64,000 bases of DNA from Candidatus Tectimicrobiota bacterium (GTDB lineage: Bacteria > Tectomicrobia > Entotheonellia > Entotheonellales > Entotheonellaceae), in NCBI GenBank assembly GCA_026005175.1, contig BPKO01000005.1:186001-250000 (forward strand), read 5' to 3'. The position numbers were made by a program, and so were the translations under genes. Positions within the stretch are counted from its first letter, which is position 1; every line of letters starts with the position of its first letter. Under the pieces are notes generated by a model. The model ran no database searches and was not told the DNA's origin. It saw only the letters and a program-made list of their open reading frames with translations. This document shows, in pieces, positions 8,399 through 30,801 of the stretch.

Positions 8399-9187
8399 GT
8401 GCCCCACATCGAGATCGTTGGCATCACGAAGGTCTACGAGCAGCCGGCGGCTCCCCCGATTGTCGCGCTCGATGGCGTCGACCTCACCGTCGAGCACGAT
8501 CAGTTCGTGAGCCTTGTGGGGCCAAGCGGCTGTGGAAAAAGCACGTTGCTGCACCTCGTCGGCGGCTTTATCTCTCCCAGCACCGGCGAGATTCGCATCG
8601 ATGGCCGTCCCGTCACCGGGCCAGGCCCGGACCGCGGCATCGTCTTCCAGAACTTTGCCCTGTTTCCGTGGCTTACGGTGCGCGGCAACGTCGAGTACGG
8701 CCTGGCCGAAAAGGGCATACCTCGTAGGGAAAGGCGAAAGGTTGCCCAGCACTTCATCGATATGGTCAAGCTGACCGGCTTTGAGGAGGTCTATCCGCAT
8801 CGCCTTTCGGGGGGCATGCAGCAGCGCGTCGCCCTGGCGCGCATGCTGGCTTGCGACCCGCAAATCCTGCTCATGGACGAGCCTTTCGGAGCCCTGGACG
8901 CTCAAACGCGGCTGATCCTGCAAGAGGAGCTCAAGGAGATCTGGCGCCAGGCTCGCAAAACCGTGCTCTTTGTCACGCACGACGTGCGTGAGGCGGTCTT
9001 CCTCTCCCAGCGAGTGGTGGTGATGACGGCCCGCCCCGGCCGGATCAAAGAAATCGTCGATACCGATTTGCCTGCGGATGCGCCGCGGCTGGCGGTGGAT
9101 GCCTTGGCCGAGGACATCTGGGCCACCCTGCGTGAGGAGGTCTTAAAGGCCGTTGTGCCGGGGGACAGGCGGGAGCAGGCGCCGTGA
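8399..9187 (+). CDS. ABC transporter ATP-binding protein (nitrate/sulfonate/taurine type)
   Basis: A 262-aa ATPase of the SsuB/TauB group. Walker A is GPSGCGKST, the signature LSGGMQQR, Walker B ILLMDEPFGALD, and the switch His lies in VTHDVREAV. The start is GTG at 8399, 5 bases after the preceding stop. The gene overlaps the first permease by 4 bases, so translation is probably coupled. Confidence 0.9.
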   Translation: MPHIEIVGITKVYEQPAAPPIVALDGVDLTVEHDQFVSLVGPSGCGKSTLLHLVGGFISPSTGEIRIDGRPVTGPGPDRGIVFQNFALFPWLTVRGNVEYGLAEKGIPRRERRKVAQHFIDMVKLTGFEEVYPHRLSGGMQQRVALARMLACDPQILLMDEPFGALDAQTRLILQEELKEIWRQARKTVLFVTHDVREAVFLSQRVVVMTARPGRIKEIVDTDLPADAPRLAVDALAEDIWATLREEVLKAVVPGDRREQAP

Positions 9188-14444: not shown

Positions 14445-14474
14445 TTGACTGCCAAGGCAAGTTCTCAGTATACT
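14445..14474 (+). promoter_or_regulatory. Promoter of tRNA-His
   Basis: TTGACT at 14445-14450, 18-base spacer, TATACT at 14469-14474, ending 11 bases before the tRNA. A typical distance for a tRNA promoter. Confidence 0.65.
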
Positions 14475-14485
14475 CAAGCCATCGG

Positions 14486-14560
14486 GGGTGAGCGTAGCTC
14501 AGCGGCAGAGCGCTGGACTGTGGCTCCAGTGGTCATGGGTTCAAATCCCATCGCTCACCC
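14486..14560 (+). tRNA. tRNA-His(GTG)
   Basis: A cloverleaf with the extra G at position -1 opposite discriminator C, as in bacterial tRNA-His. Acceptor GGTGAGC/GCTCACC, D-stem GCTC/GAGC, anticodon stem CTGGA/TCCAG around CTGTGGC (anticodon GTG), T-loop TTCAAAT. CCA is not encoded. The 3' end overlaps the stop-codon end of the opposite-strand quinone reductase gene by 6 bases. Confidence 0.95.
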
Positions 14561-26617: not shown

Positions 26618-28819
26618 CTACTTGACGACCACGATCTCGACCTCGCCTTCTCGGCGCGTCACGCTCACCCCCACGTCCTGTGGGTAGCGGTAGAGGGTGA
26701 GGTCAAGGGTGGCTTGCCCGACGCGCAGGTTGGTGATGCGCACCTCTTGCAAGAAGGGGGGCAGCAGCGGCGCGGTGAAGCAGATCTGGGGCTGGGGATG
26801 GCGGAAGGAGAGGCCCAGGCAAGCTTGCAGCAGCAAGAACACCGCGGCGCTGGCCCAGGCTTGCGGCGCGCAGGCCACCGGGTAAAGAGTCGGCCCTTCG
26901 CCAGGACGCCGCGTAAAGCCGCAGAAGAGCTCCGGCAGGCGGTGCAAGTCCATGAACAGGCAGGCGTCAAAGAGGCCGGTGAACACCTTGAGGGTGGCCT
27001 CCTTGAGGCCGTAGCGGGCCATGCCCGCGGCGATGAGGGCGTTGTCGTGAGGCCACACCGAGCCGTTGTGGTAGGCCATGGGGTTGTAGCGCCGCTCCGA
27101 AGAAGAAAGGGTGCGAATCCCCCAGCCAGAAAAGGCGTCCTCGGCCAGCAGCGCGGCGGCCACGCGCCGTGCCCGCTGCGGGCTAGCAATGCCGCTGAAG
27201 AGGGTGTGACCGGCGTTGGAGCTGCGCACGCGGCAAGGGCGCTTGTGGCCGTCGAGGGCCAGGACGTAAGTGCCAAGCTCCTCGCTCCAGAAAGCCCGCT
27301 CGAACTGCTCTTGCAAGGCCTGGGCCTGGCGCCGCAGCGCGGCGGCGCGCTCCGCTTGCCCCAGCACGGCGGCGAGCTCTGCCGCGCCCTGTTTGGCGGC
27401 GTAGACATATCCCTGCACTTCGCACAGGGCGATAGGGCCTTCGGCCAAGCGGCCGTCGGCGTGAAAGACGGCGTCGTGCGAGTCCTTCCAGCCCTGATGC
27501 ACCAGGCCGCGGGGCGAGCGGCGCGCGTACTCGACAAAGCCGTCGCCGTCCACGTCGCCGTAGGTGTCGATCCAGTGCAGGGCCAGCTCGATGTGGGGCC
27601 AAAGGGTTTCGACAAACGCCAAGTCGCCGGTGCGGCGGTAGTACTCGTAGGCCAGCACCACAAAGAGGGGTGTGGCATCGACGCTGCCGTAGTAGCGGCC
27701 AAAGGGAATCTCGCCCAGCGCCGCCATTTCTCCCTGGCGCGCCTCGTGCAGGATCTTGCCCGGCTCGGCGTCCTGCTCGGGAATCACCTCCTGGGCCTGG
27801 GTGGTGGCGAGGTAGGCGAGCACGCCGCGGGCCAGAGCCGGGTTGACCCACAGGTACTCGAGGGCGGTGATGAGGCCATCGCGGCCAAAGGGCGTGCTGA
27901 ACCAGGGCACGCCGGCGTAAGGGTAAGGGCCGGTGGGCATGGCGGTAACCATCATGTAGAGGTCGGCGCGCGAGCGGTTGAGCCAGTCGTTGAACTGCTC
28001 ATTAGACGTGTAGATGGCGCAATCGCCGCTTTTGGCCTCGCGCAGGGCGCCGTCGGCCAGCGTAAAGGCTTCGTGGAACGCCAGCCGCGGCGGCCGCGGC
28101 TCGGAGGTATGGCAGGAAATGGTGAGGAAAAAGGCTGCCGCTTCTTTGGGCTGCAGCTGCACCGCCAGCTGCAGCTCGCCGGGGCTCACCCGCTTGGGCG
28201 CCGGAGCACAAGCAATGCGGGTATATCTCTTGATGCCGTCAAGCCCTTCGTAGGCCAGGGTGACGCCGCTGGGATCGACGTGCGGGGGCAGCAGGCGGCC
28301 CCGCTGCCGCCGCTTGAGGCCGCGCACTTCAAAAATGTCGGCAAAATCGGCGGCAAAGCGCAGGGTGAGGTCGACCTCGAGGGGCTCCAGGGCGTAGTTG
28401 CGCAGGGTCAGACATTCGTAGCAGGTACCCTGCCAGAGGAACTTGGAGCGCTGAAGGTGCAGGGTGTCGCGGTGGAGGACCACCTGCCCGTCGGCGGTCA
28501 CGTCGGGATTGGCCAGGTCCACGGTAAGAAGGGCGTTTTCCTCGTGCACGGTGGAGCTCAGCAGCAAGGGACGGGAAGTGCCCAGAAGCAGCTCGAGACG
28601 GCTGAGGAAGCGGGTTCCGGCGTGATAGAGCCCCTGCTCGCCGAGCCCCAGCGGGGTGATGTCGCCGTAGCGGTTGAACACCGCAAAGGTGTCCCCTTCT
28701 TTGAGCACCCGGGTGCGGTCGTCGGCGAGGGCCGACGTGGCCAGGATGTAAAACTCGTCCTCAATCCGGATGATTTCCTGGCGGGCGGGCGTCTGTCGCG
28801 GCAGCATCCCTAGCGGCAT
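26618..28819 (-). CDS. Amylo-alpha-1,6-glucosidase (glycogen debranching-type) family protein
   Basis: A 733-aa enzyme of the bacterial debranching-type family. The N-terminal domain (about 1-280) has FAVFNRYGDITPLG and YHAGTRFLSRLELLLG. The (alpha/alpha)6 catalytic domain has AGVPWFSTPFGRDGLITALE, WIDTYGDVDGDGFVEYAR and MAYHNGSVWPHDNALIAAG with acidic residues at the expected places. It acts on branched or short glucans. Starts at ATG 28819 or 28807 are possible (AGAGAAGG upstream). No other glycogen gene is in the window. Upstream, TGGACG-N17-TAACAT on the minus strand might be its promoter. Confidence 0.88.
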   Translation of the reverse strand: MPLGMLPRQTPARQEIIRIEDEFYILATSALADDRTRVLKEGDTFAVFNRYGDITPLGLGEQGLYHAGTRFLSRLELLLGTSRPLLLSSTVHEENALLTVDLANPDVTADGQVVLHRDTLHLQRSKFLWQGTCYECLTLRNYALEPLEVDLTLRFAADFADIFEVRGLKRRQRGRLLPPHVDPSGVTLAYEGLDGIKRYTRIACAPAPKRVSPGELQLAVQLQPKEAAAFFLTISCHTSEPRPPRLAFHEAFTLADGALREAKSGDCAIYTSNEQFNDWLNRSRADLYMMVTAMPTGPYPYAGVPWFSTPFGRDGLITALEYLWVNPALARGVLAYLATTQAQEVIPEQDAEPGKILHEARQGEMAALGEIPFGRYYGSVDATPLFVVLAYEYYRRTGDLAFVETLWPHIELALHWIDTYGDVDGDGFVEYARRSPRGLVHQGWKDSHDAVFHADGRLAEGPIALCEVQGYVYAAKQGAAELAAVLGQAERAAALRRQAQALQEQFERAFWSEELGTYVLALDGHKRPCRVRSSNAGHTLFSGIASPQRARRVAAALLAEDAFSGWGIRTLSSSERRYNPMAYHNGSVWPHDNALIAAGMARYGLKEATLKVFTGLFDACLFMDLHRLPELFCGFTRRPGEGPTLYPVACAPQAWASAAVFLLLQACLGLSFRHPQPQICFTAPLLPPFLQEVRITNLRVGQATLDLTLYRYPQDVGVSVTRREGEVEIVVVK

Positions 28820-28968: not shown

Positions 28969-29760
28969 ATGGAGCTCGGGCTGCAGGGCAAAGTGGCCAT
29001 TATTACCGGCGGCAGCGCCGGCATTGGCAAAGCCACCGCGAAGCGGCTGTGCGAGGAGGGCGTCCGCGTCACCATCTGCGCGCGCCGCCCCGAGGTGCTG
29101 CGCCAGGCGGCAGAGGAGATCGAGGCGCAGACGGGCGGCGAGGTGCTGGCGGTGCCGGCAGACGTGTGCCGCGACGAGCAGGTGGCCCAGATGGTGCAGC
29201 AGACCCTGGATCGGTTTGGCGGCGTCGACATTCTGGTCAACAACGCCGGCGGCTCGCGCGCTTTCTCGTTCTTCGAGGCCACCGAGGCGCTGTGGCGAGA
29301 AGACCTGGAGATCAAGCTCTTTGGCGCCATTCGCTGCATCCGGGCGGTGGTGCCTTCCATGCGCCAGCGCGGCGGCGGCCGCATCATCAACATCACCACC
29401 ATTGGCGGCAAGGCGCCGCGCCCGCACGCCTTGCCCACCACGGTGAGCCGCGCCGCCGGCATCAACCTGACCAAATCGCTGGCCAGCGAGTTTGCCGCCG
29501 ACAACATCCTTGTCAACACGATTTGCCTTGGCCTGGTCAAGAGCGCCCAGTGGGAGCGCCGCTACGAAGCGCTGCGCCAGCAGCAGCCCGACCTCACCCT
29601 GGAGGCGTACTATGCCCAGGTGGGGCAGCGCGTGCCGCTGGGGCGCATGGGCGAACCGGAAGAAGTGGCCGACCTCATTGCCTTTCTCGTCTCCCCGCGG
29701 GCGGCGTTTATCACCGGCACGGCCATCAACTTCGACGGCGGCGCCGCGGCAGTGGTCTAA
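28969..29760 (+). CDS. SDR-family protein lacking the canonical YxxxK dyad
   Basis: A 263-aa short-chain dehydrogenase/reductase-fold protein. The cofactor loop is ITGGSAGIGKATAKRL, and ILVNNAGG and GRIINITTIGGK are normal. Where the catalytic Y-x3-K should stand, the sequence reads TTVSR (PTTVSRAAGINLTKSL): Tyr is Thr and Lys is Arg, and the Ser of the triad is Thr. The C-terminus (GRMGEPEEVADLIAFLVSP, ITGTAINFDGG) is standard. It may be a binding protein or use a different chemistry. Expressed from its own promoter; Shine-Dalgarno GGAGTGAG. Confidence 0.85.
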   Translation: MELGLQGKVAIITGGSAGIGKATAKRLCEEGVRVTICARRPEVLRQAAEEIEAQTGGEVLAVPADVCRDEQVAQMVQQTLDRFGGVDILVNNAGGSRAFSFFEATEALWREDLEIKLFGAIRCIRAVVPSMRQRGGGRIINITTIGGKAPRPHALPTTVSRAAGINLTKSLASEFAADNILVNTICLGLVKSAQWERRYEALRQQQPDLTLEAYYAQVGQRVPLGRMGEPEEVADLIAFLVSPRAAFITGTAINFDGGAAAVV

Positions 29761-29774
29761 GCGCGTGTGACCCC

Positions 29775-29803
29775 TTGACATCGGCGTGACTGCTACGTAT
29801 ATT
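29775..29803 (+). promoter_or_regulatory. Strong promoter of the structured small transcript
   Basis: Consensus TTGACA at 29775-29780, exactly 17 bases, TATATT at 29798-29803. It is one of the best promoter matches in the window and points at a unit that ends in a strong terminator about 210 bases on, with no recognised gene in it. Confidence 0.75.
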
Positions 29804-29830
29804 GTTGACCACCAAAGTGGGGTTGAGACC

Positions 29831-29929
29831 ATGATTTACTTGCTGACGGAGTGCCTCAAATTTCCGTTAAAGGGCTCCCCTCGTCACCTGCCCCCAGACG
29901 AGGCGGAGCACGAGAAGCGGGGCTGGTGA
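29831..29929 (+). CDS. Possible small ORF (32 aa) inside the structured transcript
   Basis: ATG at 29831 after GGGGTTGAG reads MIYLLTECLKFPLKG and continues to a charged end, stopping at TGA 29927. It would be the only protein of this transcript. The overlap with strong RNA stems and the lack of a recognised family make coding doubtful; it could be a leader peptide or small protein. Confidence 0.22.
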   Translation: MIYLLTECLKFPLKGSPRHLPPDEAEHEKRGW

Positions 29930-29983
29930 GCGGGCCTCCAGCCCGTGGGCGTTTCCCGGCGTGGGACGCCGTAAGCAATGCGA

Positions 29984-30019
29984 GGGGATGCTGCAAAGGG
30001 CAGCATCCCCTTCTTTTTT
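29984..30019 (+). terminator. Intrinsic terminator of the small transcript
   Basis: A perfect 11-bp stem GGGGATGCTGC (29984-29994) / GCAGCATCCCC (30000-30010) with a 5-base loop, followed by TTCTTTTTT. A textbook rho-independent terminator. Confidence 0.92.
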
Positions 30020-30024
30020 GTCCC

Positions 30025-30053
30025 TTGTCACCGCCAGGCCGCTGTGCTACAGT
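30025..30053 (+). promoter_or_regulatory. Promoter of the SprT-like gene
   Basis: TTGTCA at 30025-30030, 17 bases, TACAGT at 30048-30053, directly after the preceding terminator and 31 bases before the ATG. Confidence 0.6.
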
Positions 30054-30084
30054 CAAAGGCCCTTGACGCGCTTGTGACTGCTGC

Positions 30085-30801
30085 ATGAGGCCTGCTGACC
30101 CCGACACCCGCTGCCCGTTTGTGGCGACCGTTGCCGCCCTGCCGGCGGCCTGGCTTGCCGAGCGCCTGGCGGCCCCGGTGACGCTGGCGTGGACGCGCAA
30201 TCGCGTGGTCATGGTCAGGGTGAGGGTTTTGGCCGGCGGGGGCTACCGGGTGCGGTTGCACGGCTGCTTTCGGCAGGCCCCGATGCCGGTCTGGCAGGCG
30301 CTGGTGGCGTACATCCGGCACGGCGACCGCACGGCGCGGGCCATCCTGCGGCGCTTCCTGCAAGGCGAGGGGGCGCTTGCTGGCCCGGAGCCGGCCGGAT
30401 CGTGTCCAGCGCGTGGTGCGGCGCGCGGCCGCTACTTCGACCTCGAGGAGATCCTGCGCACCCTCAACCGCCGTTACTTTGGCAACCGCGTGCAGGCGCG
30501 CATCGTCTGGGGGCGGCGGCCGCCGCGGCGGCAGCGGGTGTCGATTCGACTAGGATCGTACTGTGCCCGCACCCGTCTCATTCGCATCCATCCCGCTCTG
30601 GACCAGGCCTTTGTGCCGCGCTACGTGGTGGAGAGCGTGGTCTTTCACGAAATGCTGCACCAGCTCGTGCCGTGCCGCCGCGTGCGGGGCCGGCGATGCC
30701 TGCATCCGCCGCGCTTTCGCCAGTGGGAGCGGCAGTTCCCTGCCTATGCCCGCGCCGAGGCCTGGAAGCGACGCCACTTGACGCGGTTGCTCCGTAGCTG
30801 A
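30085..30801 (+). CDS. SprT-like zinc metalloprotease-domain protein
   Basis: A 238-aa protein. The second half is an SprT-type domain: LEEILRTLNRRYFGNRVQARIVWG (DPBB-like entry), RLIRIHPALDQAFVP and the zinc motif VFHEMLHQLVP (HExxH), followed by a His in CLHPPRFRQWE as possible third ligand. The first 110 residues are basic, with no known domain. SprT/Spartan proteins cut DNA-protein crosslinks in eukaryotes; the bacterial role is unclear. The transporter gene follows after 6 bases. Confidence 0.82.
   Translation: MRPADPDTRCPFVATVAALPAAWLAERLAAPVTLAWTRNRVVMVRVRVLAGGGYRVRLHGCFRQAPMPVWQALVAYIRHGDRTARAILRRFLQGEGALAGPEPAGSCPARGAARGRYFDLEEILRTLNRRYFGNRVQARIVWGRRPPRRQRVSIRLGSYCARTRLIRIHPALDQAFVPRYVVESVVFHEMLHQLVPCRRVRGRRCLHPPRFRQWERQFPAYARAEAWKRRHLTRLLRS

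Follow-up and report, generated by a model that had tools for sequence, protein, structure and literature searches.

What is encoded in the 324 bp between two conserved genes, for a short-chain dehydrogenase (SDR) and a SprT-like protein, of an uncultured member of the Entotheonella family? The gap runs from the SDR stop at 29760 to the SprT start at 30085 (or a GTG at 30121) of the window, as we call the whole stretch of 64,000 nucleotides that was analysed; the host genome is 4.0 Mb in size and 77% complete. The host phylum is uncultured and is known for natural products. A first-pass annotation had read the gap as a structured small RNA with its own promoter and terminator. The unit is common to no other genome that we searched, and it reads more as a message for a 32-residue mini-protein than as a folded regulatory RNA. 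The features on which this reading is built are collected in Table 1.

Table 1. Features of the SDR-SprT interval and its flanks, in window coordinates
Feature	Position	Strand	Remarks
SDR gene	28969..29760	+	Flanking gene; PF13561, PF00106
Repeat copy 1	29772..29794	+	23-nt imperfect direct repeat, CCCTTGAC-N6-GTGACTGCT; overlaps P1 -35; possible operator
Promoter P1	29775..29803	+	TTGACA-N17-TATATT; 11/12 sigma-70 match
Predicted transcript	29810..30020	+	~210 nt; start inferred ~7 nt past the -10; ends inferred from promoter and terminator
SD-like sequence	29819..29827	+	GGGGTTGAG; ahead of the ORF; duplex with anti-SD
ORF	29831..29929	+	32 aa, MIYLLTECLKFPLKGSPRHLPPDEAEHEKRGW; first AUG of the predicted transcript
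Hairpin 2	29875..29908	+	11 pairs and one bulge; sole internal hairpin predicted at high probability
Hairpin 3	29931..29945	+	5 bp
Intrinsic terminator	29982..30019	+	Perfect 13-bp stem, 5-nt loop, T-rich tail
Promoter-like site P2	30025..30053	+	TTGTCA-N17-TACAGT, 9/12, plus a TG extension; assigned to the SprT-like gene
Repeat copy 2	30060..30082	+	Between P2 and SprT, immediately ahead of the first possible start codon of SprT
SprT-like gene	30085..30801	+	Flanking gene; PF10263

The first question is whether the gap holds a transcription unit at all. P1 is present as the first-pass annotation described it, and it is the top promoter-like site between 28500 and 31500, where three sites were found against 0.3 expected. 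In 450 kb of the host genome, only eight promoter-like sites reach 11/12 and there are about five strong intergenic terminator-like hairpins. The terminator at 29982 has the longest stem among the terminators of these 450 kb, P1 lies 180 nt upstream of it, and by our reading of the site list the two form the sole close promoter-terminator pair in the sample. The perfect hairpin and its T-run (stem 29982-30012, tail CTTCTTTTTT, -25.1 kcal/mol) are as claimed; the stem had been given as 11 bp and is extended to 13 bp by two outer A-T/G-T pairs. Consensus promoters also stand ahead of tRNA genes, at window position 14445 (tRNA at 14488) and at 8655 of L155 (tRNA at 8615), which indicates that the sigma-70 motif is meaningful in the host organism. 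Because the promoter and terminator are rare, their pairing is the only one in the sample and consensus promoters precede tRNA genes, we consider it likely, on the sequence evidence, that the gap holds a self-contained transcription unit about 210 nt long. The claim of an own promoter and terminator held up well, and what had been described as a new promoter right after the terminator is present as the promoter-like site P2.

The same cannot be said of the fold. When the terminator was excluded (29810-29981), the z score was -0.56 against 500 dinucleotide shuffles, and 128 of the 500 folded equally well. Including the terminator gave z scores of -2.5 to -2.8, an excess that is due to the terminator, as it disappears with it. 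Without the terminator, the fold ranks in the middle of genome windows matched for GC content, half of which are as stable, and when pairs were limited to 40 nt the local fold reached a p value of 0.05. Four further hairpins had been described between promoter and terminator, and at least four local hairpins also form in 86% of the shuffled versions of this segment. In the full transcript, the pair probability is firm for hairpin 2 (0.99), middling for hairpin 3 (0.56) and weak for hairpins 1 and 4 (0.28 and 0.20, respectively). The statement that no known RNA family can be recognized was borne out, as an Rfam search matched no family on the stretch. The unit's DNA has no relative in 60 genomes, among them four others of the phylum, and this left nothing alignable for stem covariation. 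With a fold that is at chance level without the terminator, that matches no Rfam family and that is shared with no relative searched, the structured-RNA interpretation in its original sense is without support and probably not correct.

A noncoding, trans-acting sRNA is the best of the alternatives, although we consider it unlikely. According to this explanation, the transcript would not be translated, hairpins 2 and 3 would use their C-rich loops (ACCUGCCCCCA and CUCCA) to pair with the Shine-Dalgarno (SD) regions of target messages, and the terminator hairpin would guard the 3' end. The strong promoter and terminator, the short transcript and the exposed C-rich loop of the well-predicted hairpin 2 all fit such a molecule. 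However, there is no surplus structure apart from the terminator, neither in the z score nor convincingly in the local fold; Rfam and the four phylum relatives offer nothing similar; C-rich loops are to be expected at 63% GC; and a gene-like ORF occupies the middle of the transcript. Among the known RNAs, the Pxr regulatory sRNA (RF01812) gave the best Rfam score on the stretch and has a similar length and a strong terminal hairpin. Its score of 18.4 bits (E value of 0.58) lies far below the gathering score of 80, and we put the match down to chance, with the terminator contributing the signal. A divergent 6S RNA (RF00013) was considered because the genomes of the Entotheonella family that we searched yielded no 6S. 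The length of 6S is similar to that of the unit, but 6S is rod-like and the unit's fold is branched; the model gave no score even at an E value of 10 and the unit is not conserved in relatives, so this candidate was rejected. As a separate observation, Rfam identified 6S RNA in the class relative G004 (L135:1501-1682), but the search gave no match in the four genomes of the family (G000 to G003), where it may have been lost, missed in incomplete assemblies or become too diverged for the model. One arm of the terminator could pair with the neighbouring glycogen-debranching gene at its start (GGGATGCTGCC, minus strand, 28800-28810), a match that we attribute to chance because this 11-mer is present 10 times in the genome.

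The 32-codon ORF that had been noted in passing is indeed present, and it turned out to be the more informative part of the transcript. Its AUG lies about 20 nt from the predicted transcript start, and GGGGUUGAG is found 4 to 12 nt upstream of it. The upstream stretch is predicted to form a duplex of -9.2 kcal/mol with the anti-SD sequence; 72% of the genes in this genome have a weaker one at their first ATG, and 9% of random stretches have one that is as strong. When codon use was modelled on 209 genes of the host genome, the ORF had a log-likelihood ratio of +6.9 bits. Among random ORFs of 28 to 36 codons that begin with ATG, 0.8% reach this value, which corresponds to the 44th percentile of true first-32-codon segments, and the other reading frames across the stretch scored from +0.2 to -21. 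Both synonymous choice (p value of 0.04) and amino acid composition (p value of 0.03) contribute to the signal. The peptide has a short hydrophobic start and a charged C-terminal half. We regard the codon and SD signals, which come from the sequence of a single genome, as modest, and with 32 codons in one genome the codon signal could also be the leftover of a decayed gene. No homologue of the peptide was found in 386 genomes, in which the relatives of the host are all from other genera, nor in plasmids, Pfam, NCBIfam, PHROGs or pattern-searched viral contigs, and the searches of viral contigs and phages gave nothing. Weak peptide matches in G004, in C1 and C10 of the host's own genome, in plasmids and in PDB chain 5fwj share neither a start codon nor a context and were set aside as chance. 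Because no homologue was found in these genomes and databases, selection on the frame is putative. The first-pass annotation had allowed for a small protein gene should only the frame be conserved. The codon and start-site evidence fits that outcome better than a structured RNA, although no homologue that would demonstrate conservation of the frame was found either. The claim is further tempered by the fact that most annotated bacterial sRNAs hold some ORF of 10 to 50 amino acids and only about 10% of them are judged to be coding (PMC5521070).

Taking these results together, our tentative preference, held at close to even confidence, is for a lineage-specific short monocistronic mRNA that encodes a 32-amino-acid protein and possibly also has an RNA role. 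This reading is based on the codon score, the SD duplex, the chance-level fold without the terminator, the rare paired promoter and terminator, and a repeat that is unique in the genome. RNA polymerase would start at P1 near 29810 and stop at the 13-bp terminator. The SD-like site and the first AUG would then direct translation of the frame, so that the main product would most likely be a soluble protein of 32 residues, and the transcript may additionally act as an RNA. We would guess that the product is a small regulator or accessory peptide which is co-controlled with the SprT-like gene through the 23-nt repeat, one copy lying over the -35 of P1 and the other in the leader downstream of P2. 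The two copies are 74% identical and 288 bp apart, and their core, TTGACN6GTGACTG, is found nowhere else in the 4.0 Mb of the genome. The TGAC-N7-TGAC arrangement, with its 11-bp spacing, suggests a putative regulator site that is common to both promoters.

The relatives add another aspect to the history of this slot. The nearest genomes with the same SDR and SprT pair belong to two uncultured Candidatus Entotheonella, in which the SDR orthologues are 72% identical. In both of them, a 428-amino-acid subtilase-like gene is located between SDR and SprT (L039 2656-3942; same position in L040); the name is based on a GTSFASP-type motif and a membrane segment, not on a family search. The gene is also present in G001, of the same family. 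Since no orthologue was found in the 77% complete host genome, the slot appears to have been remodelled. This opens the way to an explanation in which the unit is a nonfunctional remnant: a relic coding ORF in the former subtilase slot, with a fortuitous or left-over promoter and a hairpin that is simply the SDR terminator. We rate this as improbable. Two points speak for it: relatives carry a peptidase gene at this very location, and the hairpin lies 220 nt past the SDR stop, from where it could terminate the SDR transcript. Nevertheless, there is no DNA similarity to the peptidase gene, and alignment of the ORF with the peptidase N terminus at the matching position gave p values of 0.2 to 0.4. 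One of eight tries, against a frame-extended L040 ORF, gave a p value of 0.02. The alignment is not significant, and we rejected the ORF as a peptidase remnant. In addition, an 11/12 promoter that lies 180 nt ahead of the terminator with the longest stem in 450 kb is unlikely to be debris. A mobile element or MITE is dismissed, as the genome contains no second copy.

It is also conceivable that the unit is a regulatory 5' leader, where P1 reads via a leader peptide into the SprT-like gene unless the terminator forms, with an antiterminator that competes with hairpin 2. The anatomy is that of trp-type leader-peptide attenuators, in which promoter, short ORF, terminator and gene follow each other in the same order, and an 8-bp antiterminator pairing is possible between 29876-29883 and 29981-29988. 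We consider this quite improbable: the ORF lacks a codon run, the fold with the antiterminator (-83.2 kcal/mol) is less stable by 10 kcal/mol than the one with the terminator (-93.3), and a separate promoter-like site for SprT follows the terminator. Moreover, the Entotheonella SprT orthologues have no comparable leader, and their upstream gene stops about 30 nt before the start. Based on orthologue length, the GTG at 30121 may be the SprT start instead of the ATG at 30085; neither is preceded by a good SD sequence.

The preferred small-protein message can be compared with the dual-function or peptide-coding sRNAs SR1/SR1P, VcdRP/VcdP and SgrS/SgrT, which are also short transcripts with their own promoter, an intrinsic terminator and a small ORF; VcdP, for example, has 29 amino acids (PMC8672173), compared to 32 here. 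The unit differs from them in that it has no sequence relationship to them and no conservation, its structure beyond the terminator is at chance level and its transcript is predicted from sequence. A more elaborate version, in which a taxon-restricted dual-function RNA arose in the slot of a lost subtilase, encodes the 32-amino-acid protein and shares an operator with SprT so that one regulator controls both, seems a long shot to us. Our literature search found no paper on a mapped sRNA or a small protein in the host phylum. If real, the unit would be a mini-gene that either arose de novo or evolves fast, in an uncultured, natural-product phylum. A more general lesson is that in a GC-rich genome a promoter, a terminator and hairpins found by eye do not amount to a structured RNA, and the ORF should be tested first.

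Two minor observations concern similar signals elsewhere in the host genome. A second TTGACA-N17-TATATT site, with the same hexamers and spacing as P1, is present at L145 11704 (plus strand). A TPP riboswitch at L146 1278-1389 (minus strand) overlaps a terminator-like hairpin that is among the few strong ones in the sampled sequence.
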